Of a stretch of DNA of 64,000 nucleotides, positions 528 through 54,872 are shown in pieces. Each line of letters begins with the position of its first letter. The first letter of the stretch is position 1. The position numbers and the translations under genes were made by a program. Below the pieces are notes generated by a model. It had not been told where the DNA came from. It did no database searches and saw nothing but the letters and a program-made list of their open reading frames with translations. The stretch is from Gammaproteobacteria bacterium. GTDB taxonomy: Bacteria > Pseudomonadota > Gammaproteobacteria > GRL18. The stretch spans positions 24,146 to 88,145 of the forward strand of contig JADGEK010000005.1 of NCBI GenBank assembly GCA_016744395.1. The letters run 5' to 3'.

Positions 528-1862
528 TTATTTGATTTTGCGAGCTTCCAGATAAAAACGCTTTTCATCAGCTTCACCCATAGAAAATGTTTTTCTAGGC
601 AGTGCACCATCAAAGATGATGGTTTTAAATAAGCTGTGCTTTGAAATAGGAGGAAAGAAGAAACCCATATTCCCTTCTTTCACTCCCAACTCATTAACGA
701 CATCATCACCGTGAATAAAGTCAACTTTTCCGCCATTTTCTTCCAGGTAATCATTTAAAAATGATTCAATTGTGGCTAATTCCAAAGTGAAAACAGGATT
801 CTCTATTTGAATATAACCGTAACCAGAAGCATCATTAAAAGGAATAACATGAACATTTTCAATGTTTGAAACTTCTGTTGAGCGTTTCTTCATTTCTTCT
901 TCACTATCACAGCGACAAACATTGCAATTACCAGAAAAATGAGAATGCATATCTTTAAGAAGCTGTTCTGGATCGACATTAAAAATCACCCGATGGATAG
1001 GTTCAAATTGTAAACCCTCATCATGAATATTGACCAGTTCAACTAAGGCATAGCGTGCAGGATTATCCATCTCAGTAAGAGAATTATCAGCATCCTCTTT
1101 GATTTTTTCCCATATGGCTTTTGCCGTGGCTAAAGAATGATTGCCATCTCCCATGGCATATAAAAGTACCTCTTTATCCTCAGCATTATATTTTTTTGAA
1201 AAGACTTCTGGTGAGGCTAAGTGAGTGAGTGCATCGGCAACCTGTTGAACCAGTTCAGGTGTGTCAATGGCATATCCTTTAAGATGGCCACTCTCCATCA
1301 TTAAGTCAAAATCATAAAGTGGCTCAGGGTTTTTATTAAATAATGGTTCAATAACGGTACGCTCAGGATCATCAATTAAAACCATAATATGTGGTAATTC
1401 AATGGCTGCATCTTGTCTGACTTTAATGCGTGGCGGCAGACGATCAACAATAGTTCCCTCAGTGGCACGAATTAACGTTTGTGAACCTTTATTGAAGTCG
1501 TATTGTTCTAAGTCGATTGCCACAACCAGACCTTTGCGTGAATCAGCTTGTGATGTTTTTCTATCAACCAGTACAAAGCCTTTGTTTTTCATCGCAGTTA
1601 ATACACCATCATCAAGATATTGCTGCATGGTCGTATTGATGTTCTTAATGCGTTCATCACCGTCACTGTCTTCAAGAAAAACTTCTGGAAAAATAACATT
1701 GAGAGTTGAAGGTTCATTATTAGTGGTTTCTTTAGACTCGCTCCAATACTCTGGCTGAGAAGTATACTGGTCACAAGCAACAACAGACCACTTGTGTAAA
1801 TCAATGTCCTGGTTAGGTAATAAAATTTCAGGTACTTGTAAACCAATTTTATCTAAATTCAT
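528..1862 (-). CDS. DUF1015 family protein
   Basis: This 444-residue protein belongs to the DUF1015 family (PF06245). The family contains the conserved stretch seen here as LLYAMGDGNHSLATAKAIWE, and a C-terminal HGDDVVNELG block. These proteins are distantly related to ParB/sulfiredoxin-fold kinases such as archaeal ADP-dependent serine kinase, but the function of the bacterial members is not established. No signal peptide or membrane segment is visible, so it is probably cytosolic. I start at the ATG at 1862 (MNLDKIGLQ), preceded by GGAG at good spacing. A longer reading begins 7 codons upstream without a better ribosome site. It lies 87 bp downstream of purC on the same strand and may be cotranscribed with it. 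Confidence 0.8.
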   Translation of the reverse strand: MNLDKIGLQVPEILLPNQDIDLHKWSVVACDQYTSQPEYWSESKETTNNEPSTLNVIFPEVFLEDSDGDERIKNINTTMQQYLDDGVLTAMKNKGFVLVDRKTSQADSRKGLVVAIDLEQYDFNKGSQTLIRATEGTIVDRLPPRIKVRQDAAIELPHIMVLIDDPERTVIEPLFNKNPEPLYDFDLMMESGHLKGYAIDTPELVQQVADALTHLASPEVFSKKYNAEDKEVLLYAMGDGNHSLATAKAIWEKIKEDADNSLTEMDNPARYALVELVNIHDEGLQFEPIHRVIFNVDPEQLLKDMHSHFSGNCNVCRCDSEEEMKKRSTEVSNIENVHVIPFNDASGYGYIQIENPVFTLELATIESFLNDYLEENGGKVDFIHGDDVVNELGVKEGNMGFFFPPISKHSLFKTIIFDGALPRKTFSMGEADEKRFYLEARKIK

Positions 1863-1949
1863 ATTTATCTCCGACACGACCAATGGTGATTAAGTCTTGG
1901 TGTTAAACAATTTGTTATTTGTTAAAAATTTTTAAATTCGGGTATTACT

Positions 1950-2843
1950 TTAATGTGTGAGTCTGTCCAAAGCCTCAGAGTATTTAGCGGAAGTATTTTG
2001 TACTACTTCATCAGGTAACTCAGGTCCAGGAGATGTTTTATCCCAATCCAGTGTTTCAAGATAATCTCGCACATATTGTTTATCAAAACTGTGTGGGTTT
2101 GAACCAGGCTGATAAGCATCGGCCAACCAAAAACGTGAAGAGTCAGGTGTGAGTGCCTCATCAATCAAAGTCAGTTGATTATTAGCATCAACCCCAAATT
2201 CAAACTTAGTATCAGCAATGATAATACCACGAGGTAAAGCATATGCCGCAGCCTCAGTGTAGAGTTTTAGGCTGATGTCTTTAATTTGCTGTGCTAAATC
2301 ATTTCCGATAATGGCAACAGTAGCATCATAATCAATATTTTCATCATGTTCACCGACAGCAGCTTTGCTAGAGGGCGTATAGATGGCCTCAGGTAACTTA
2401 TCAGCTAACTGCAGTCCTTTAGGTAACTCTATACCGCAAATTGCACCGTTGGCCTGATAATCTTTCCAGCCAGAACCAATAATATAACCACGGACAATTG
2501 CCTCAACGGGTAATGCTTTGAGTTTTTTAACAACAATGGCTCGCCCTTCCACTAATTCGCGCTCCGTTTTGTCAGGGATTGCATCGGCCAATGATATTGC
2601 AGAAACCTGATTAGGAACGGTTGAGCTAAAGTGATTAAACCAGAAATTGGAAACACTGGTTAAAATAGCGCCTTTACCAGGAATGGCAGTGGGTAAAACG
2701 ACATCAAATGCTGATAAGCGATCAGTCGTGACGATCAGCATGTGGTCGTCACCGACAGCATAAATGTCCCTGACTTTTCCACGATGGATTAAAGGCAGGC
2801 TTTTTAAATCAGTATCAAAGAGTATAGGAACCATAGTATTCAT
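1950..2843 (-). CDS. purC: phosphoribosylaminoimidazole-succinocarboxamide synthase
   Basis: SAICAR synthase joins aspartate to CAIR with ATP hydrolysis in de novo purine synthesis. The 297-residue length and the N-terminal signature HRGKVRDIYAVGDDHMLIVTTDRLSAFD fit the longer, yeast Ade1-like form of the enzyme. The downstream VEAIVRGYIIGSGWKDY and the DEALTPDSSRFW motif are also typical (the latter is the PurC signature 2 region). It is a single cytosolic domain and appears complete. Two possible ATG starts lie three codons apart (MNTMVP) and neither has a strong Shine-Dalgarno sequence; a TATAAT hexamer lies upstream (2869-2874, minus strand). It is divergent from the flavin reductase gene. 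Confidence 0.96.
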   Translation of the reverse strand: MNTMVPILFDTDLKSLPLIHRGKVRDIYAVGDDHMLIVTTDRLSAFDVVLPTAIPGKGAILTSVSNFWFNHFSSTVPNQVSAISLADAIPDKTERELVEGRAIVVKKLKALPVEAIVRGYIIGSGWKDYQANGAICGIELPKGLQLADKLPEAIYTPSSKAAVGEHDENIDYDATVAIIGNDLAQQIKDISLKLYTEAAAYALPRGIIIADTKFEFGVDANNQLTLIDEALTPDSSRFWLADAYQPGSNPHSFDKQYVRDYLETLDWDKTSPGPELPDEVVQNTSAKYSEALDRLTH

Positions 2844-2989
2844 CAGTTGTTTTGATAAGAGATTGATAATTATAAAACATTGCCCATAAAAAAGCAGGAA
2901 TTAATTAAACTTGAATAATGTGGTCAGTGTACCCATCACTAAACTATTAATTTTTTAAATTCTAAAGCTAATTGACAGGAATGAAGGGT

Positions 2990-3607
2990 ATGAAAATAGG
3001 AATTATCAGTGGCAGTCATCGGCAAAACTCCCAAAGTTTAAAAGTGGGTACCTATATTCAGGAAACACTGGGCAAAGAGAATGCTTGTGAAACATGGCTT
3101 TATTCTCTTGAAGGTAATCCACTACCTTTCTGGGATGAAGGTGTATGGAATGGAGAGCAAAAATGGCTGGATATATTGACTCCAATGCAAGAGCAATTGG
3201 CAAGTTGTGATGCTCTGGTGGTTATTACGCCAGAGTGGCATGGTCAAGTGCCTGCAGGCTTAAAAAACTTTTTTTTACTTTTTGGAAAAAATGAATTAGC
3301 GGATAAGCCCGCTTTGATTGTTTCGGTTTCATCTGGAATCGGTGGCAGTTATCCTGTTGCAGAGTTGCGTATGAGCAGCTATAAAAACAGTCGAATTTGC
3401 TATATCCCTGAACATGTTATTATCCGTGAAGTTGAATCGGTGCTTAATAAAGAGGGTGCTGAAGCGAAAAATAATGAACGTTCTGATGGTTACATTCGTG
3501 AGCGCTTACAGTGGTCATTAGACATACTCAAAGAGTATGCAAAAGCCTTGAAAGGCGTTCGTGATAGTGGTGTGACACAAACTGATAAATTTGGCAACGG
3601 GATGTAG
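2990..3607 (+). CDS. NAD(P)H-dependent FMN reductase family flavoprotein
   Basis: The protein has the flavodoxin-like fold of the NADPH-dependent FMN reductase family (PF03358). It opens KIGIISGSHRQNSQSLKVG, where the GSxRxxSxS loop binds the FMN phosphate, and continues with VVITPEWHGQVPAGLKNFFL, the conserved region that packs on the flavin. Such enzymes reduce FMN, quinones, chromate or azo compounds in the cytosol; the true substrate cannot be read here. About 205 residues is normal. The start is taken at ATG 2990 because AGGA (2977-2980) is spaced 9 nt from it; a TTG at 2972 and an ATG at 2981 are in frame but worse placed. Confidence 0.85.
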   Translation: MKIGIISGSHRQNSQSLKVGTYIQETLGKENACETWLYSLEGNPLPFWDEGVWNGEQKWLDILTPMQEQLASCDALVVITPEWHGQVPAGLKNFFLLFGKNELADKPALIVSVSSGIGGSYPVAELRMSSYKNSRICYIPEHVIIREVESVLNKEGAEAKNNERSDGYIRERLQWSLDILKEYAKALKGVRDSGVTQTDKFGNGM

Positions 3608-46708: not shown

Positions 46709-47932
46709 ATGGACAGTCATAAAATAAAAAATTCATCTTTTCAAAAACAGCCCACAGAACAGTTGCCTCAGCATGGTGGTGGTTTAAACGATGCTATAAA
46801 ACAATATGGCAATGACTTACCGTGCCTTGAAAAAGAATTCTGGCTTGATTTGTCAACAGGGGTTAATCCAAAGAGCTGGCCTGTTCCTGAAATACCAGCC
46901 AGTGTTTATAATCGACTGCCAGAGAAAGAGGATGGGCTGATTGAAATAGCACAAACTTATTATAGGGCAAGCAATATCCTTCCTGTTGCAGGTTCCCAGG
47001 AAGCAATACAATTGCTGCCTATGATTTTTCAGCAGTACTCCTTATTTCAAAAGAACAATCAAGCAAATACTCAATCGAAAAAACAAGCCAAAGTGGGCAT
47101 TATCACTCCCTGTTATTCTGAGCATGAATTTCAATGGAAAAAAAATAATTTTTCAGTTGTTCATTTGACGACAGCAACCGTCGATATGGTCATTGATGAG
47201 CTGGATGTTCTGGTATTAATTAATCCCAATAATCCAACAGGAGAAGTGATTGAACCCAGCATTATTAAAGGCTGGCAAGCACAACTTAATGATGACAGAA
47301 GAAAAAGTAAAGGCTATTTAATTGTTGATGAAGCTTTTATGGATGCGACACCTGAAAATAACATGCCATGCAACAATAACATGCAAAACCTGATTGTCTT
47401 ACGCTCCGTTGGAAAGTTTTTTGGTCTGGCAGGCATTCGTTGTGGTTTTGTGATTGCTCACCCTTCCGTATTATCTTTGATTGAATATCATCAAGGCCCC
47501 TGGTCTGTCAGTGGTCCAACACGTTGGATGATGAAAAAAGCATTTCGGGATAAGCAATGGATCATTGATAACAAAGTCTATCTGAATCAGGCTTCAATGC
47601 GATTAGAAAAGTTGTTGAAAAAACACTTGAAGAAGAAGCGAATCGAGTTCTCGATTTCAGGAACCGTATTATTTAAAACAATTTATTTCAATAGTTCAGA
47701 ATATTTATTTAAACAGTTGGCAAAGCAGGGTGTTTTAGTGCGTTTGTTGGATAAAAGTTGTACCTGTCCATCTTGTACTTCACAATTTAAAACCATTAAA
47801 GAACAACATAAGGGAATACGTTTCGGCCTGCCCTCGAATGAAAAGCAATGGTGTCGACTGGAGACGGTTCTTGATAGTATTGACTACGATTTGCCATGTA
47901 ATCAATATCCGTTAATAAAAAAAATGTCATGA
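46709..47932 (+). CDS. cobD: threonine-phosphate decarboxylase (PLP-dependent)
   Basis: Makes (R)-1-amino-2-propanol phosphate, the CbiB substrate, from threonine phosphate. It is a fold-type I aminotransferase-like protein: GGGLNDAIKQYG and FWLDLSTGVNPKSWPVP at the start, VLINPNNPTGEV, and the PLP lysine in VLRSVGKFFGLAGIRCGFVIA. At 407 residues it is longer than usual (about 360). The last 60 residues include CTCPSC. Called CobC in the aerobic-pathway naming. It follows cbiB by 41 bp and the two are probably one operon. Confidence 0.92.
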   Translation: MDSHKIKNSSFQKQPTEQLPQHGGGLNDAIKQYGNDLPCLEKEFWLDLSTGVNPKSWPVPEIPASVYNRLPEKEDGLIEIAQTYYRASNILPVAGSQEAIQLLPMIFQQYSLFQKNNQANTQSKKQAKVGIITPCYSEHEFQWKKNNFSVVHLTTATVDMVIDELDVLVLINPNNPTGEVIEPSIIKGWQAQLNDDRRKSKGYLIVDEAFMDATPENNMPCNNNMQNLIVLRSVGKFFGLAGIRCGFVIAHPSVLSLIEYHQGPWSVSGPTRWMMKKAFRDKQWIIDNKVYLNQASMRLEKLLKKHLKKKRIEFSISGTVLFKTIYFNSSEYLFKQLAKQGVLVRLLDKSCTCPSCTSQFKTIKEQHKGIRFGLPSNEKQWCRLETVLDSIDYDLPCNQYPLIKKMS

Positions 47933-48586
47933 ACAATCACAGTTTAATGAAAAAAGTAAACCTTATCATTGTCATTGCAGAATAAAGTTTTTAACTCAAT
48001 GGATATAAAATCCGCGAATTAATTGCTTATAAGTACAAATTCACAAAAAGGATGATAATAAAAATTTTTACTAAATTTTCCGTAGTAGCCATTTCAAATA
48101 GCTAATAATTTGATGGAGTAAATTGTCCCAATTCAACATATAAGAGACAATTAGTCCCTTTTTATAAAGTGACAGCTTACCGATTTAGAGCTGTCATTCT
48201 ATGTGTCTGTGACCTAGTACTTTCGTCCCATTGCAGCCAGTCGGTATTTTTTAGATACTAACGTCCAACAGTAAAAAGCCGAAATTCAGGAACAATAACT
48301 TCACAGGTTTTTTTTGACTTTAGCTTGCTTTTTCAGCTAAAGATAAAAAATTTCAGTGGAAGTTCTGGTTAGAATTATCTTTTATTTGTTTAAATATATT
48401 AACAGTATACTCAAATAGCACCTAATCCAATACCATTCTCTCCATCACCTTCATTTTTTTCTCTTTCTATACCTGCCATGCAGGTTTTCCTTTTCTTCCC
48501 ATTTCAATTCCAGCTCACAGCATTGTTTTGCCGAGCAATTTTCCAAACATCTCAAATAACTTGTGCATCATAAATTTTTTCCAAAA

Positions 48587-49016: not shown

Positions 49017-50054
49017 TTGAATATTTTTGCAGTTGATCTATTCTGTGGTGTTGGAGGCTTAACTCATGGCCTTGAGCAAAGCGGGATTGATGTTATTGCT
49101 GGTTATGACATTGATGAAAAATGTCGCATTCCGTATGAACGCAATAATAGTGCGAAATTTATAAACCGAAGCATTACGGATTTAACATCAAAAGAATTGG
49201 CATCAAAATACCCAAACAAGAGTTTAAAAATTCTTGCGGGCTGCGCACCTTGCCAACCCTTTTCAAAATACACACAAGCTCAACCAAAAGATAGTCGCTG
49301 GAGCTTATTAGAAGAATTTGGTCGTCTCGCAAAAGAGGTAAACCCCGAACTTATTACAATGGAGAACGTTCCAGATTTATATAGGCATACAGTATTCACA
49401 GATTTTGTGAAAACATTAGAAAAAAATGGATATTATGTATCACACTCTATTGTCTATTGTCCTGATTACGGTATTCCTCAAAGCAGAAAACGACTTGTAC
49501 TGCTGGCGTCAAAATTTGGAAAGCTTGCACTGATAGAGCCAACACACCAACCAAATGAATATGTAACACTAAAACATACCATTGGAAATTTACCTCAATT
49601 AAGAGCAGGAAAATCCCACAAGTCTGACCCGCTACACCGTTCAGCAGGACTATCAGATATAAATATGAGAAGAATAAAAGTATCCAAACAAGGCGGATCA
49701 TGGAAAGACTGGCCAAATGAGCTATTAACTGCCTGTCACAAAAAAGAAAGCGGCAAAAAATATACAGCAATTTATGGAAGAATGCAGTGGGATAAGCCAA
49801 GCCCAACAATTACTACGCAATTTTATAACTATGGTAGTGGAAGACACGGGCACCCGACTCAATCAAGAGCAATTAGCTTAAGGGAGGCTGCGCTACTGCA
49901 ATCATTTCCAGCAGACTATCAGTTTACCGATGAAAGTAGTTTTTCCATTACAGATATATCAAGAATGATTGGAAACGCGGTTCCCGTTCGTTTAGGTGAA
50001 GTAATCGGCCGAAGCTTTTCAAAACATTTAACAGAGTTACAAATCAATTATTGA
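49017..50054 (+). CDS. DNA (cytosine-5) methyltransferase
   Basis: A 345-residue m5C methyltransferase. Motif I is FAVDLFCGVGGLTHGLE; motif IV is GCAPCQPFS with the catalytic Cys79; motif VI is MENVPD (Glu116); motif VIII is QSRKRLVLLA; motif X is RMIGNAVPVRLGEVI. The target-recognition region lies at about residues 185-260 and does not reveal its site. The start is TTG with GAGG 6 bp upstream. It probably marks host DNA for the convergent DUF262-HEPN operon, whose last gene it overlaps by 7 bp at the 3' end. No cognate restriction endonuclease of a known type and no Vsr gene is present. Confidence 0.94.
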   Translation: MNIFAVDLFCGVGGLTHGLEQSGIDVIAGYDIDEKCRIPYERNNSAKFINRSITDLTSKELASKYPNKSLKILAGCAPCQPFSKYTQAQPKDSRWSLLEEFGRLAKEVNPELITMENVPDLYRHTVFTDFVKTLEKNGYYVSHSIVYCPDYGIPQSRKRLVLLASKFGKLALIEPTHQPNEYVTLKHTIGNLPQLRAGKSHKSDPLHRSAGLSDINMRRIKVSKQGGSWKDWPNELLTACHKKESGKKYTAIYGRMQWDKPSPTITTQFYNYGSGRHGHPTQSRAISLREAALLQSFPADYQFTDESSFSITDISRMIGNAVPVRLGEVIGRSFSKHLTELQINY

Positions 50055-50710
50055 TATTTTTTGTTATCTACGCAATCCATAATATTATCTACTATTTCAT
50101 ATATGTAGTGAATAATTGTACTATACAAATCTTCTAGCTCGGAAATAGTATTAACAGAACCTACACCTGAAAATGTTTTGTTTCCGTGAGCTAAATCATT
50201 TCTATTATTTTTCACCTCTTCTAATCGTTCTCCTTTTGCGGTTTTTCTTGCGTCAGTTCTTTCCGTAAACCCGTAGATTTTTGCAATTTTTTTTATTTCG
50301 GCTCGAGTAATGTTTCCAGAAAATAGATTTTTTGCATTGAATGTAGCGATATGAAAGTTTATAGATACCCCTCCAGCCGTCTCAGAAACAATATCGTCCA
50401 GAGTGATATTATTATTTCGCGCTCGTCGCCATAGCTCTTTTTGTAATTCAGTTCTAACATCATCGTAGCCTTGATTAGACGAAGAAATAGAGTCATGTAT
50501 AGCAGAAATTGCTTCTCTCATTGTAGATTCAATAAGATTATATAAGAGAAGAAAAACCGTCCCTTTAAGAGTTTTTATTAATAATGGACTCACATCAAAT
50601 TGTTCACCATTACTATTTGATAGTGTTTCGCCCTCAACAAAATTAATTAATTTAAAATATTCTTCTATTTCTTTTTCTCGATTTCCTAAATCATCAAGCA
50701 AGTCATCCAT
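50048..50710 (-). CDS. HEPN ribonuclease-like protein (MAE_28990/MAE_18760 type)
   Basis: A 220-residue, mostly helical protein. It carries the HEPN catalytic motif R-x4-H in NNRNDLAHGNKTF (Arg170, His175), the pattern of toxin and Abi ribonucleases. KGTVFLLLYNLIESTMREAI is another conserved helix of the MAE_28990/MAE_18760 group, which is often found next to DUF262 genes. It starts 3 bp after the DUF262 stop with GGTGAGG as ribosome site, so they are one operon. It is a likely effector (RNA cleavage leading to growth arrest), inferred from the motif and context. Confidence 0.75.
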   Translation of the reverse strand: MDDLLDDLGNREKEIEEYFKLINFVEGETLSNSNGEQFDVSPLLIKTLKGTVFLLLYNLIESTMREAISAIHDSISSSNQGYDDVRTELQKELWRRARNNNITLDDIVSETAGGVSINFHIATFNAKNLFSGNITRAEIKKIAKIYGFTERTDARKTAKGERLEEVKNNRNDLAHGNKTFSGVGSVNTISELEDLYSTIIHYIYEIVDNIMDCVDNKKYQ

Positions 50711-50713
50711 TAG

Positions 50714-51865
50714 TTATTCCTCACCTAACAACTTATCTCTCACATATTCAATTCGATTTTTAACTTTAACTCGACTATTAGCTCCATCACCAGTTGTTAA
50801 TATTTTAAATTCTTCCGAAAATAGCCAGTCATCAATACCTTTCACAACTAAGTCAGGATTTTCTCTAAGTGCCAACGCAACACCGACGGAAATGGCTTCA
50901 AACCGAACTCGAGGTGTGGTTTTCGATCCTTTTGACTTTCTAAATCCAAAAGGAAAATTATCTTGAACAAAGCTCATTACCGCTGTGAATTCATCAACCA
51001 TATCTTGATGTGGATTGTTTTGTAGCTCTGAATTTTGTTCAAGATACGAGTCTAGGAAATCCCGAACTGAATGATCAAATGTTTCATAATTTTCTAGATA
51101 TGCAAAGAATCTCAATACGAACTCCATTGCCTCACCACGTTTTGCTTTAGTAAGACCTAAAGGCGCAGCTTCTGTAAAGGCACGAATATCAGCACATACT
51201 TCTAAGACTTGCTTATACAAAGGAGAATTACCATGTTTCGATCCTTTCCTTTTTTCCATATCTTTAAGCTCATCACTCCCTGTATTAATACGCCCCCAAA
51301 GATCTCGTCTAGTAGATTCTGTGCAGTCACTCAATTCAATTATTCTAATTGAAATTCGTTTAAATCTCCGTTGTCGAGAACTAGGAAGATCGCTAAACAT
51401 AAATCCATTTATTTCAGGAACTAATTTTAATCCTTTTAATCTTAGTTCATTTTTTACGAATGCATGTAGTGTTCTTATTCTTTGAGAACCATCGACAATT
51501 TCAATTCTTCCATCATGATCGGGATCGTCAGATTTGACATCAGCGATAAATATATAAGGTATAGGAAGGCCAATCATTAAAGATTCGATTAATCTGCTTT
51601 GATTTTCAATTAGCCAAACAAAGTCACGCTGATAATCTGGAACAAATAATTCATTTTCATCGGTATCCTTTCCCTCATGGTATTTGTCAACGACCATCTC
51701 TACGGTAAATTCCTTTGTATCGTAACTTACCTCTCGTTGATGCTTTCTAATAGCACTTTCAGCCTTTTCCTTAAAAGACTCTATTTGTCCTCTAAGCTCA
51801 ACTCTCCTTGCATCACTATTTGAAGATGCAAGGTCATTTGTCAGCTCTTCTATTGTTTTATCCAT
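50714..51865 (-). CDS. DUF262 (ParB-fold) protein
   Basis: A 383-residue protein with the DUF262 domain found in the GmrSD type IV restriction enzyme and other defence proteins. FVPDYQRDFVWLIENQSRLIESLMIGLPIPYIFI and the motif IEIVDGSQRIRTLHAFV (DGxQR, about 125-129) are visible; this fold hydrolyses nucleotides in GmrS-like proteins. The N-terminal 40 residues form a coiled coil. The C-terminal DUF1524 (HNH) nuclease of GmrSD is absent. It therefore may act as sensor/NTPase and leave cutting to the HEPN partner. The ATG at 51865 has GAGG upstream; four codons of upstream frame are ignored. Confidence 0.85.
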   Translation of the reverse strand: MDKTIEELTNDLASSNSDARRVELRGQIESFKEKAESAIRKHQREVSYDTKEFTVEMVVDKYHEGKDTDENELFVPDYQRDFVWLIENQSRLIESLMIGLPIPYIFIADVKSDDPDHDGRIEIVDGSQRIRTLHAFVKNELRLKGLKLVPEINGFMFSDLPSSRQRRFKRISIRIIELSDCTESTRRDLWGRINTGSDELKDMEKRKGSKHGNSPLYKQVLEVCADIRAFTEAAPLGLTKAKRGEAMEFVLRFFAYLENYETFDHSVRDFLDSYLEQNSELQNNPHQDMVDEFTAVMSFVQDNFPFGFRKSKGSKTTPRVRFEAISVGVALALRENPDLVVKGIDDWLFSEEFKILTTGDGANSRVKVKNRIEYVRDKLLGEE

Positions 51866-51892
51866 TAGTAACCTCACTGTATGTAAATACTA

Positions 51893-52113
51893 CTACTTAA
51901 CGAAATGATTAATTGTCAGCTTCTTTTTAATTTTGGAAATTGTATGCTCAGAAAAACCTAGCAGACTTTTTATATAGTTATAGCTTTTTCCATCACATAG
52001 AAGCCCTTCAATATCATCATGTAATTTTGGTTTATAGGACGCCACCGATATTTACCAGCATCTTTGGCTTTTTTGAAGCCCCAAGCTTGTCGCTTACGTC
52101 TATTGTCAAAGTC
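51893..52113 (-). pseudogene. C-terminal remnant of a serine recombinase (resolvase), frameshifted
   Basis: On the minus strand one frame reads FDNRRKRQAWGFKKAKDAGKYRWRP, matching the linker of Tn3-type resolvases and invertases (pattern RxRQxxGIxKAKxxGKYKGRxP). A frameshift then joins YKPKLHDDIEGLLCDGKSYNYIKSLLGFSEHTISKIKKKL, matching the C-terminal helix-turn-helix, and ends at a TAG at 51893. The catalytic N-terminal domain is not found. It starts just outside the DUF262 gene. About 220 bp between here and 52333 contains decayed sequence in other frames with no start codon. Confidence 0.7.
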
Positions 52114-52332
52114 TTTTTAAGTAAATCTAAGACACCTATCTCGATTTTTACTGATTTTATAGTTAAATCGTGTGTGAGTCTTCGTTTTTCACTGGGGGGG
52201 ATTTCAACGGAAACATGATGATTAGAAAAACAAGCTTCCGTATTTCTTTTTTTAACATTATTGCCTATTACAATAAAAATAACACTAATACGATGGTATT
52301 TATTTGATATTAAAACGAATTATTGGTAAACA

Positions 52333-52578
52333 ATGGCAAATATCACACTAGAAAAACAAGAATCTTTATATGTTAGATATTTCCGCTTTAGAGGATTTAA
52401 CTCAAAAGGTGAATTGTCTTTAATAGCAGGTATGTCAAAGTGTACCGAGCGAAATGATTCTTCCCATCTAAAGAAGCCATTTTTTAACTATCTTTACATC
52501 AATCCAAAATGGTCGTTATTTGTACAATCCACCCATTTTACGGGACGAAAAATATTAATGATCATAGGTAATAAATGA
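52333..52578 (+). other. 81-codon open frame, doubtful gene
   Basis: The frame MANITLEKQESLYVRYFRFRGFN... has no ribosome site, no recognisable family and A+T-driven codon use. It may be a fragment of decayed mobile DNA. The flanks 52219-52332 and 52579-52718 hold nothing I can name. Confidence 0.2.
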
Positions 52579-52718
52579 CTGTTTTTTTAAATTTCAAACT
52601 TAGAAAAACACATCAAAATTACAAAAATATATAATAACCTCCATTCTAGTAAAGAACTTTATTGTCCAGTTAAAGACTTTATTAATCAGTCACAATCATT
52701 AAAAATTCAACCTTAAGC

Positions 52719-54872
52719 CTAACTCCTTCTCCATTGATGGAATTTTTTTAACCATTGAAGGATTTTTTCTGGTTTATGGGCTTGTTTCCATTGACCCGCG
52801 ACATATTTATTAGCTTCGGCAAGAGTCGGGTAAATGTGGATGGTGCCCAGAATTTTGTTGAGGCCAATGCCATGGCGCATGGCCATGACGTATTCTGCAA
52901 TTAAATCACCTGCATGCTCGCCAACAATGGTCACGCCCAGGATCTTATCTTTACCTGGTACGGTTAATACTTTAATAAACCCATGTGCTTCTTCGTCAGC
53001 AATGGCTCTGTCCAGATCATCAATATCAAACTGACTGACTTCATAGGCAATATTCTGTTCCTTTGCTTCCAGTTCATTTAAGCCCACACGAGCGACTTCA
53101 GGATCAGTAAACGTCGCCCATGGAATGACAGAATAATCCACTTTGAATGCTTTAAATCCTCTAAAAAGACCATTAACAGAAGCATACCAGGCCTGATGAG
53201 CCGCCGTATGGGTAAACTGATAAGGGCCAGCAACATCGCCACAGGCATAAATATTGGGGTACTTAGTTTGTAAGTATTCATTGACTTCAATGGTTTTTTT
53301 CGCAGTCAATGGAATATCCAGATTTTCTAAGCCAAAGCCGCTGACATTGGCTGAGCGACCTAAAGCAATGAGTACTTCATCAAAAACAATTGAAACTGTT
53401 TCACCATCTTTGTTGGTGCAAATCAGTGTTTTATTACCATCAATGATTTCAAATCGTTGTGCCTGATGATTTAAACAGACGTCAATACCTCCTTGTCTGA
53501 ATTTGTTTTGAACAATTTCTGAAACCTCAGGATCTTCACGCTTCATTAAGCGCCCATTACGTTCAACCTGAGTGACTTGACTGCCCAGACGAGCAAAGCT
53601 TTGAGCCAGTTCACAACCAATGGCACCACCACCGAGAACTAAGAAGCGAGGCGGTAAATAGTCTAAATCCCAAAGAGTATCAGAGCTTAAATAACCGACT
53701 TCTTCCAATCCTTCTAAGGGGGGAATAAATGGTCGGGCACCCGTTGCAATCACAATGTTTTTAGTGGTTAGTGTTTTGCCATTGATGTTAACGGTAAAGG
53801 GAGAAGTAATTCTGGCTTCTCCCTGAAGACACTCAACACCGAGTTTTGTGTAGCGTTCAACAGAGTCATGAGGTTCAACCTGATGAATGACTCGTTGGAT
53901 GCGTTGCATGATTTCTTTAAACTCAAACTGGGTCTCGGTTTCTTGAAACCCAAATTCTTTAGCACGAGCAATGTGAGATTTAAACTTAGCAGAGCGGATC
54001 AAAGCCTTCGATGGGACACAGCCTGTATTGAGACAGTCTCCACCCATTTTATGTTTTTCAATTAAGGTGACTTGAGCCTTAACTGCGGCGGCAATGTAAG
54101 AGGTCACCAGGCCAGCAGCACCTGCTCCAATGACCACCATATTTCGGTCAAATGATTGGGGTTTTTTGTAGCCTTTGTATACCTGATTGGCCTTTAATAG
54201 TGTGAGGATTTTTTTGGCAATCAGAGGAAAAATGCCTAATAAAGTAAAAGAAATGATTAATGGCAGAGATAAAATGCCTGAAACTGATTCTAACTGCCCA
54301 AGTTGAGTACCTGCGTTAACATAAACTGCAGTGCCTGCCAGCATACCTAACTGACTGACCCAATAGAATGTCCGTGTCTTAATTGGCGTGAGTGCCATTA
54401 CCAGGTTGATCATAAAAAATGGGAAGGCAGGTACTAATCGTAAAGTGAATAAATAAAAAGCCCCTTCTTTTTCAACACCAGCATTGATTCGTTCAAGATG
54501 GCTACCAAAGCGGTTTTGCACACTATCCCGCAGTAAAAACCGAGAAGCGAGAAAGGCCAGTGTGGCGCCAATAGTGCTGGCGAAGGAAATCAGAATCAGT
54601 CCCCAAACAAAACCAAAAACGGCACCGCCCATTAAAGTGAGCAAGGTGGCACCAGGTACAGACAAGGCAACTGAAATGACATAAAGAATAAAAAATCCCA
54701 GAGAAGCAGCTACAGGGTTCGCTTGATAGTAATTATTAAGCAAGAGCTGGTTTTCTTTTAAATATGAAAAACTGAGATATTGGGATAAATCAAAAGCAAA
54801 AAAAGTAATGATGGCAGATGCAATCAGAGCAAGGACTACTAATTTTTGAAGAGAAGCTTTCTTTAAGGGCAT
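52719..54872 (-). CDS. TVP38/VTT membrane domain fused to FAD disulfide reductase
   Basis: A 717-residue fusion. Residues 1-230 are a TVP38/TMEM64 (VTT/DedA-like) domain with six or so helices and the PGATLLTLMGGAVFGFVWGL and RFLLRD motifs. Residues 240-717 are a pyridine-nucleotide-disulfide oxidoreductase with FAD motif VIGAGAAGLVTSYIAAAVKA, the redox pair GGDCLNTGCVPSKAL, an NAD motif (VLGGGAIGCELAQSFARLG) and a C-terminal dimerisation domain ending in HIYPTLAEANKYVAG with the His-Glu-like HxYPT. It lacks the extra C-terminal cysteines of mercuric reductase, so the Hg label is not supported. The substrate is unknown. Confidence 0.9.
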   Translation of the reverse strand: MPLKKASLQKLVVLALIASAIITFFAFDLSQYLSFSYLKENQLLLNNYYQANPVAASLGFFILYVISVALSVPGATLLTLMGGAVFGFVWGLILISFASTIGATLAFLASRFLLRDSVQNRFGSHLERINAGVEKEGAFYLFTLRLVPAFPFFMINLVMALTPIKTRTFYWVSQLGMLAGTAVYVNAGTQLGQLESVSGILSLPLIISFTLLGIFPLIAKKILTLLKANQVYKGYKKPQSFDRNMVVIGAGAAGLVTSYIAAAVKAQVTLIEKHKMGGDCLNTGCVPSKALIRSAKFKSHIARAKEFGFQETETQFEFKEIMQRIQRVIHQVEPHDSVERYTKLGVECLQGEARITSPFTVNINGKTLTTKNIVIATGARPFIPPLEGLEEVGYLSSDTLWDLDYLPPRFLVLGGGAIGCELAQSFARLGSQVTQVERNGRLMKREDPEVSEIVQNKFRQGGIDVCLNHQAQRFEIIDGNKTLICTNKDGETVSIVFDEVLIALGRSANVSGFGLENLDIPLTAKKTIEVNEYLQTKYPNIYACGDVAGPYQFTHTAAHQAWYASVNGLFRGFKAFKVDYSVIPWATFTDPEVARVGLNELEAKEQNIAYEVSQFDIDDLDRAIADEEAHGFIKVLTVPGKDKILGVTIVGEHAGDLIAEYVMAMRHGIGLNKILGTIHIYPTLAEANKYVAGQWKQAHKPEKILQWLKKFHQWRRS

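Follow-up and report, generated by a model that had tools for sequence, protein, structure and literature searches.

A decayed piece of a serine recombinase lies directly upstream of a three-gene candidate defence cassette in this gammaproteobacterial genome, and the question is whether the recombinase brought the cassette to its present site. The sequence-only reading of the locus had offered two explanations, namely that mobile DNA delivered the cassette or that the site is an insertion hotspot. We examined both in the 64-kb stretch of DNA analysed here (hereafter the window) and in related genomes, plasmid records and viral contigs. The features concerned are as follows.

46709..47932, plus strand: cobD-like aminotransferase, the left flank (Pfam PF00155)
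49017..50054, plus strand: C5 cytosine DNA methyltransferase, convergent to the other two cassette genes (Pfam PF00145, 3e-61; TIGR00675 above cut-off)
50048..50710, minus strand: HEPN_MAE_28990 protein with an invariant RNDLAH (Pfam PF18737, 6.6e-35; alignment)
50714..51877, minus strand: DUF262 / GmrSD_N protein with a DGSQR motif, likely ATG start at 51865 (Pfam PF03235, 6.9e-23; alignment with three relatives)
51893..52045, minus strand: resolvase remnant frame A, C-terminal helix-turn-helix ending in a stop at 51893-51895, with 50 open codons running from a GTG at 52045 (tblastn with intact resolvases, frames read)
52035..52116, minus strand: resolvase remnant frame B, end of the linker helix and arm (KDFDNRRKRQAWGFKKAKDAGKYRWRP), frame-shifted against frame A (tblastn; DNA alignment with five intact genes)
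52204..52287, no strand: piece of a dispersed noncoding genus repeat, lying upstream of where the remnant is truncated (repeat searches)
52719..54872, minus strand: VTT/TVP38 domain fused to a pyridine nucleotide-disulphide oxidoreductase, the right flank (Pfam)

A truncated small serine resolvase

The minus strand at 51893-52116 holds, split over two reading frames, a small serine resolvase reduced to its C-terminal third. When the whole window was searched by tblastn with an intact Shewanella resolvase of 202 aa, its residues 166-202 matched 52024-51914 (37 aa, 76% identity, E 9e-13), and its residues 135-175 matched 52116-51994 in another frame (41% identity over 41 aa, E 1e-6), with most of the similarity in the latter lying in the first 27 residues. 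The two pieces match one resolvase in consecutive order and in register. A Vibrio plasmid resolvase used as the query recovered the same two matches, and for the intact queries both were the best by far in the window. The Shewanella query reached 58.2 bits in the real sequence and at best 21.9 bits in 1000 dinucleotide-preserving shuffles of 51880-52340, none of which came near; for the Vibrio query the two values were 57.0 and 19.6 bits. The translated search of this region that the sequence-only reading had proposed thus returned resolvase matches far above the shuffles, and its description of two frameshifted pieces, a resolvase linker and a C-terminal helix-turn-helix belonging to a decayed serine recombinase, was confirmed by tblastn and DNA alignment.

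The remnant shares the linker end, the arm and the C-terminal helix-turn-helix with plasmid and Tn3-type small serine resolvases such as WP_011979501.1 of Shewanella baltica plasmids, and differs from them in keeping approximately residues 135-202 of about 202, in two frames and with no catalytic domain detected. The joined peptide of both pieces found matches in 4028 of 72,556 plasmid records, the best with 63.6% identity over 66 aa (E 2e-16). At the DNA level, 37 plasmid records matched the remnant site with 60-80% identity, and most of the matches listed fell under genes annotated as recombinases or resolvases.

We found no convincing match to the N-terminal catalytic domain carrying the active serine (PF00239) in 52117-52420. 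A profile of residues 1-134, which hold this domain, scored below shuffles there, and DNA alignment of the same part stayed at shuffle level for four of the five intact genes. Codons 68-83 of the fifth gene, from Vibrio campbellii, aligned further upstream at 52303-52356 with a score reached in 2 of 200 shuffles; we did not count this alignment because the other four genes failed. A longer remnant extending to about 52214, at which the DNA alignment hinted, was rejected as not above shuffles, and a match of residues 98-202 that crosses nine stops in one frame was not taken as support for it. Since the catalytic domain is missing from this region, we regard the sequence as a remnant rather than a working member of the resolvase family. 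These results identify it as a pseudogene that retains the final third of a small serine resolvase of the plasmid or Tn3 type, with its 5' side cut off and its frame broken. The 5' loss and the frame change leave it unable to make an active recombinase, and as a recombinase it is dead.

Elsewhere in the same genome, PF00239 matched on contig 14 alone, where a TGA breaks the resolvase gene ahead of an open stretch of 139 aa. Judged only by eye, the gene adjoining it is similar to one in the corresponding interval of G012 (L034, 12872-13468), a relative compared below.

A variable interval between conserved flanks

We compared the interval between the cobD-like gene and the TVP38-oxidoreductase gene using one genome per species. 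Relatives of the right flank gene were found in 39 of 40 genomes, our own included, and both flanks shared a contig in 4 of the 15 genus relatives (G004, G005, G012 and G013), which together with our genome gave five intervals of 4786, 980, 5870, 11956 and 3540 bp, our own first. No similarity was found between any two of them at the DNA or the protein level. The interval of 980 bp, in G004, contains a PilJ-domain gene and neither cassette nor resolvase, that of G005 a thioredoxin-TPR gene among others, that of G012 sensor and chemotaxis-like genes (read from ORFs), and that of G013 an eCIS-core protein among others, cobD being immediately preceded there by an IS1595-type transposase (both genes in L035, 8759-9721 and 12491-13795). 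None of these four intervals yielded a resolvase match. In G009, G010 and G011, the right flank gene is followed by 5-7 kb in which no cobD was found; the gene order is therefore not universal.

Conserved flanks around mutually unrelated content in five species are what an insertion hotspot predicts, and the suggestion of a hotspot is borne out in the sense of a variable interval. Given that the content differs completely among the five species, the interval seems tolerant of DNA gain and loss. The comparison with an empty site gave a mixed outcome: in G004 the two flank genes are separated by 980 bp that hold an unrelated gene, yet the noncoding DNA next to them cannot be aligned. Because the noncoding DNA of the interval is unalignable and consists in part of short dispersed genus repeats, the exact joints and the insertion point cannot be placed.

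Three noncoding stretches in our interval (47981-48294, 52204-52287 and 52482-52694) recur, scattered, in the same genome and in other species of the genus, with about 70-96% identity over 26-223 bp. One repeat family, found in 1-6 copies per genome, was noted, and one family of about 115 bp has a recurring start and end and is possibly a small non-autonomous element. No known RNA family matched the interval above the Rfam gathering score.

The cassette and its distribution

The HEPN protein scored 121.7 bits against PF18737 (cut-off, 26.8), with PF18735 as its second family (1.6e-13), and its R-x4-6-H motif, present as RNDLAH, is invariant in the four aligned sequences. DUF262/ParB-type and DNA methylase genes adjoin it. 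Alignment with three relatives favours the ATG at 51865 as the start of the DUF262 gene, the GTG at 51877 being the start of the longest ORF. From this ATG, the stop codon of the remnant is 27 bases away, close to the 28 bp first reported, and remnant and DUF262 gene are co-directional. Scanning around the DUF262 start for promoters and terminators gave nothing above shuffles.

The cassette is sparsely distributed. DUF262 was found in 2 of the 39 other genomes, at 33-36% identity, so the relatives do not all carry the cassette, and 10 genomes out of 369 in the class, ours among them, have HEPN_MAE_28990. From this distribution, the cassette appears to have been gained in the present lineage. 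A scan of genome contigs recovered 15 DUF262 relatives, 14 of them with the HEPN gene directly behind; four (L063, L064, L069 and L076; 48-66% identity) also have the convergent methyltransferase as arranged in the window. DNA similarity to the three closest cassettes (L063, L064 and L076) covers about 49023-51825 and ends before the remnant. Two of the closest cassettes have ordinary neighbours, radical-SAM and chaperonin genes in Aliivibrio and BON-domain and alpha-amylase genes in Pseudoalteromonas.

Viral contigs of IMG/VR hold 28 DUF262 loci, 21 of them with all three genes, many of these 21 being nearly identical to one another. With queries from the viral locus L161, in which the cassette sits between the portal and replication-A genes, both P2-type genes were found on the same piece in 14 of the 21 complete cassettes. 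Among 72,556 plasmid records, 33 also carry relatives of DUF262, and one of these, from Klebsiella, has the full cassette. Beside the copy in the window no phage genes were seen with nine proteins from two cassette-bearing proviral loci as queries, the single match being to a XerC-like gene at 19 kb. The names cobD, P2 gpA/gpQ and XerC are presumed ones, given in part by family match, with gpA and portal backed by family checks. Judged from these comparisons, the DUF262-HEPN-methyltransferase module is likely an anti-phage cassette that moves on its own, often aboard P2-like prophages and occasionally on plasmids.

Did the resolvase bring the cassette?

No resolvase-like protein was found at any of the 17 DUF262 loci in genomes (including the distant L054 and L055) or the 28 in viral contigs, in a test that used three query proteins by tblastn and could miss distant recombinases. 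Its absence from all 45 loci speaks against the resolvase as part of the cassette. Considering this together with the DNA similarity that ends inside the cassette, the resolvase was probably a separate, decayed arrival and not the vehicle. Of the proposal that mobile DNA brought the cassette, the horizontal mobility of the cassette is supported, and the recombinase as its part or carrier is not. Most likely, resolvase and cassette arrived separately and their closeness reflects a permissive site. Taken as a whole, we consider it probable that the locus combines the dead end of a plasmid- or Tn3-type resolvase, a variable interval and an independently mobile cassette that came on its own.

Alternatively, the cassette could have been a passenger beside the resolvase on a plasmid or Tn3-family transposon, the rest of which decayed after landing. 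We consider this unlikely. The 27-base spacing and the shared direction of remnant and DUF262 gene, a layout that would suit a passenger following its resolvase, count against a separate arrival and are the main points for a passenger. The closest intact resolvases, encoded on plasmids of Shewanella, Vibrio, Xenorhabdus and Providencia, belong to the plasmid and Tn3 types, consistent with such an origin: in the eight resolvase regions that we read, a Tn3 transposase adjoins in two (L144 and L145), a plasmid ParA gene lies within the piece in three (L056, L143 and L146), and neither is present in the remaining three (L057, L141 and L142). The presence of DUF262 relatives on plasmids likewise fits a passenger. 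Nevertheless, the window gave no significant match to a Tn3 transposase remnant (one TnpA query), the one Tn3 inverted-repeat core searched for was not found, and no resolvase stands beside the cassette at the 45 other loci. A 13-base direct repeat flanks the cassette on both sides (48851 and 52177), each copy being single in the window when up to one mismatch is allowed, but a repeat of this length was reached in 25 of 300 shuffles and we did not use it. The longest inverted match between the flanks, of 11 bases, was reached in 163 of 300 shuffles. A Tn3 terminal repeat suspected by eye near 52160-52200 was rejected, as that repeat core was not found there and no TnpA match was seen.

Several further observations concern the relatives of the resolvase. 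In the Shewanella plasmid region L056, an ApeA-like HEPN protein is encoded (1748-3151) upstream of the closest intact resolvase; no other known defence genes were noted in the eight regions, where most neighbours were judged by annotation only. The intact Shewanella protein matched in 5 of the 16 genus genomes searched, including our own, with 28-37% identity apart from the remnant, and no close intact copy was found among these 16. A protein search of 274 genomes of the class with the joined remnant returned our own genome and three distant matches (33-35%), and phage records returned none. The transposase family PF13358 has one match in our genome, on another contig.

It is also conceivable that the 50-codon helix-turn-helix frame survives as a small DNA-binding protein regulating the DUF262-HEPN operon, whose start lies 27 bases on, in which case a dead recombinase would have been captured as the controller protein of a defence operon. 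The frame is open from its GTG, reads into the operon and is the best kept part of the remnant (76% identity to the intact resolvase over 37 aa). On the other hand, inspection by eye revealed no ribosome-binding site, different genes lie upstream of the three closest cassettes, and a single copy gives no selection test; we regard a regulatory role as very improbable. Lastly, we give practically no credence to the resolvase match being due to chance or to a different helix-turn-helix protein, since, even though neither piece alone has a Pfam match over the curated cut-off and the joined peptide has no NCBIfam match, the pieces are consecutive and in register with the E values given above in 64 kb, and none of 1000 shuffles approached them.

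Relation to known defence systems

An association of MAE_28990 HEPN, ParB-type nuclease and DNA methylase genes was published in 2013, in a table of PMC3710099. As far as that table shows, the module has the same three components as the window, the DUF262 protein being called ParB-type there, and the HEPN active motif is conserved; the methyltransferase in the window differs in being convergent and not in one operon with the others. DUF262 proteins are described in PMC10952713 as nucleotide-driven sensors or nuclease parts in GmrSD, BrxU and SspE, and the same paper lists both DUF262 and HEPN for PD-T4-2, a system that protects its native host against T4 according to PMC9519451. The pair of DUF262 and HEPN proteins is common to PD-T4-2, as listed there, and our cassette, and the DUF262 protein matched the PADLOC model PD-T4-2_A (2.8e-28). 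The cassette differs from PD-T4-2 in that PF18737 ranks ahead of PF18735 for the HEPN protein, NsnA is the best model for the DUF262 protein (1.1e-53), and a C5 methyltransferase is added; PD-T4-2 B gave no PADLOC match to the HEPN protein at E 0.01. Our search of the open-licence literature, for the terms used, found no experimental study of a HEPN, DUF262 and methyltransferase module.

By analogy with these families, the cassette may be a restriction-modification-like or abortive defence system, and it probably works as an abortive system linked to restriction-modification. The methyltransferase would mark self DNA, the DUF262 protein would sense or cut unmarked DNA using nucleotides, and the HEPN RNase would be the effector.

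A defence hotspot lies between gpA and gpQ in P2-like phages, according to PMC9122126, and the viral-contig cassettes accompanied by both genes, above all the one situated between them, correspond to this hotspot. The copy in the window differs in residing on a chromosome contig with no phage genes detected beside it.

The locus is an example of a defence module that seems to have been moved by the neighbouring recombinase, while the comparison points to prophages and plasmids. In this genus, accessory genes could be sought in the variable interval between cobD and the TVP38-oxidoreductase gene. The remnant beside the cassette is an ordinary trace of gene traffic, next to a cassette that usually travels without such a recombinase.
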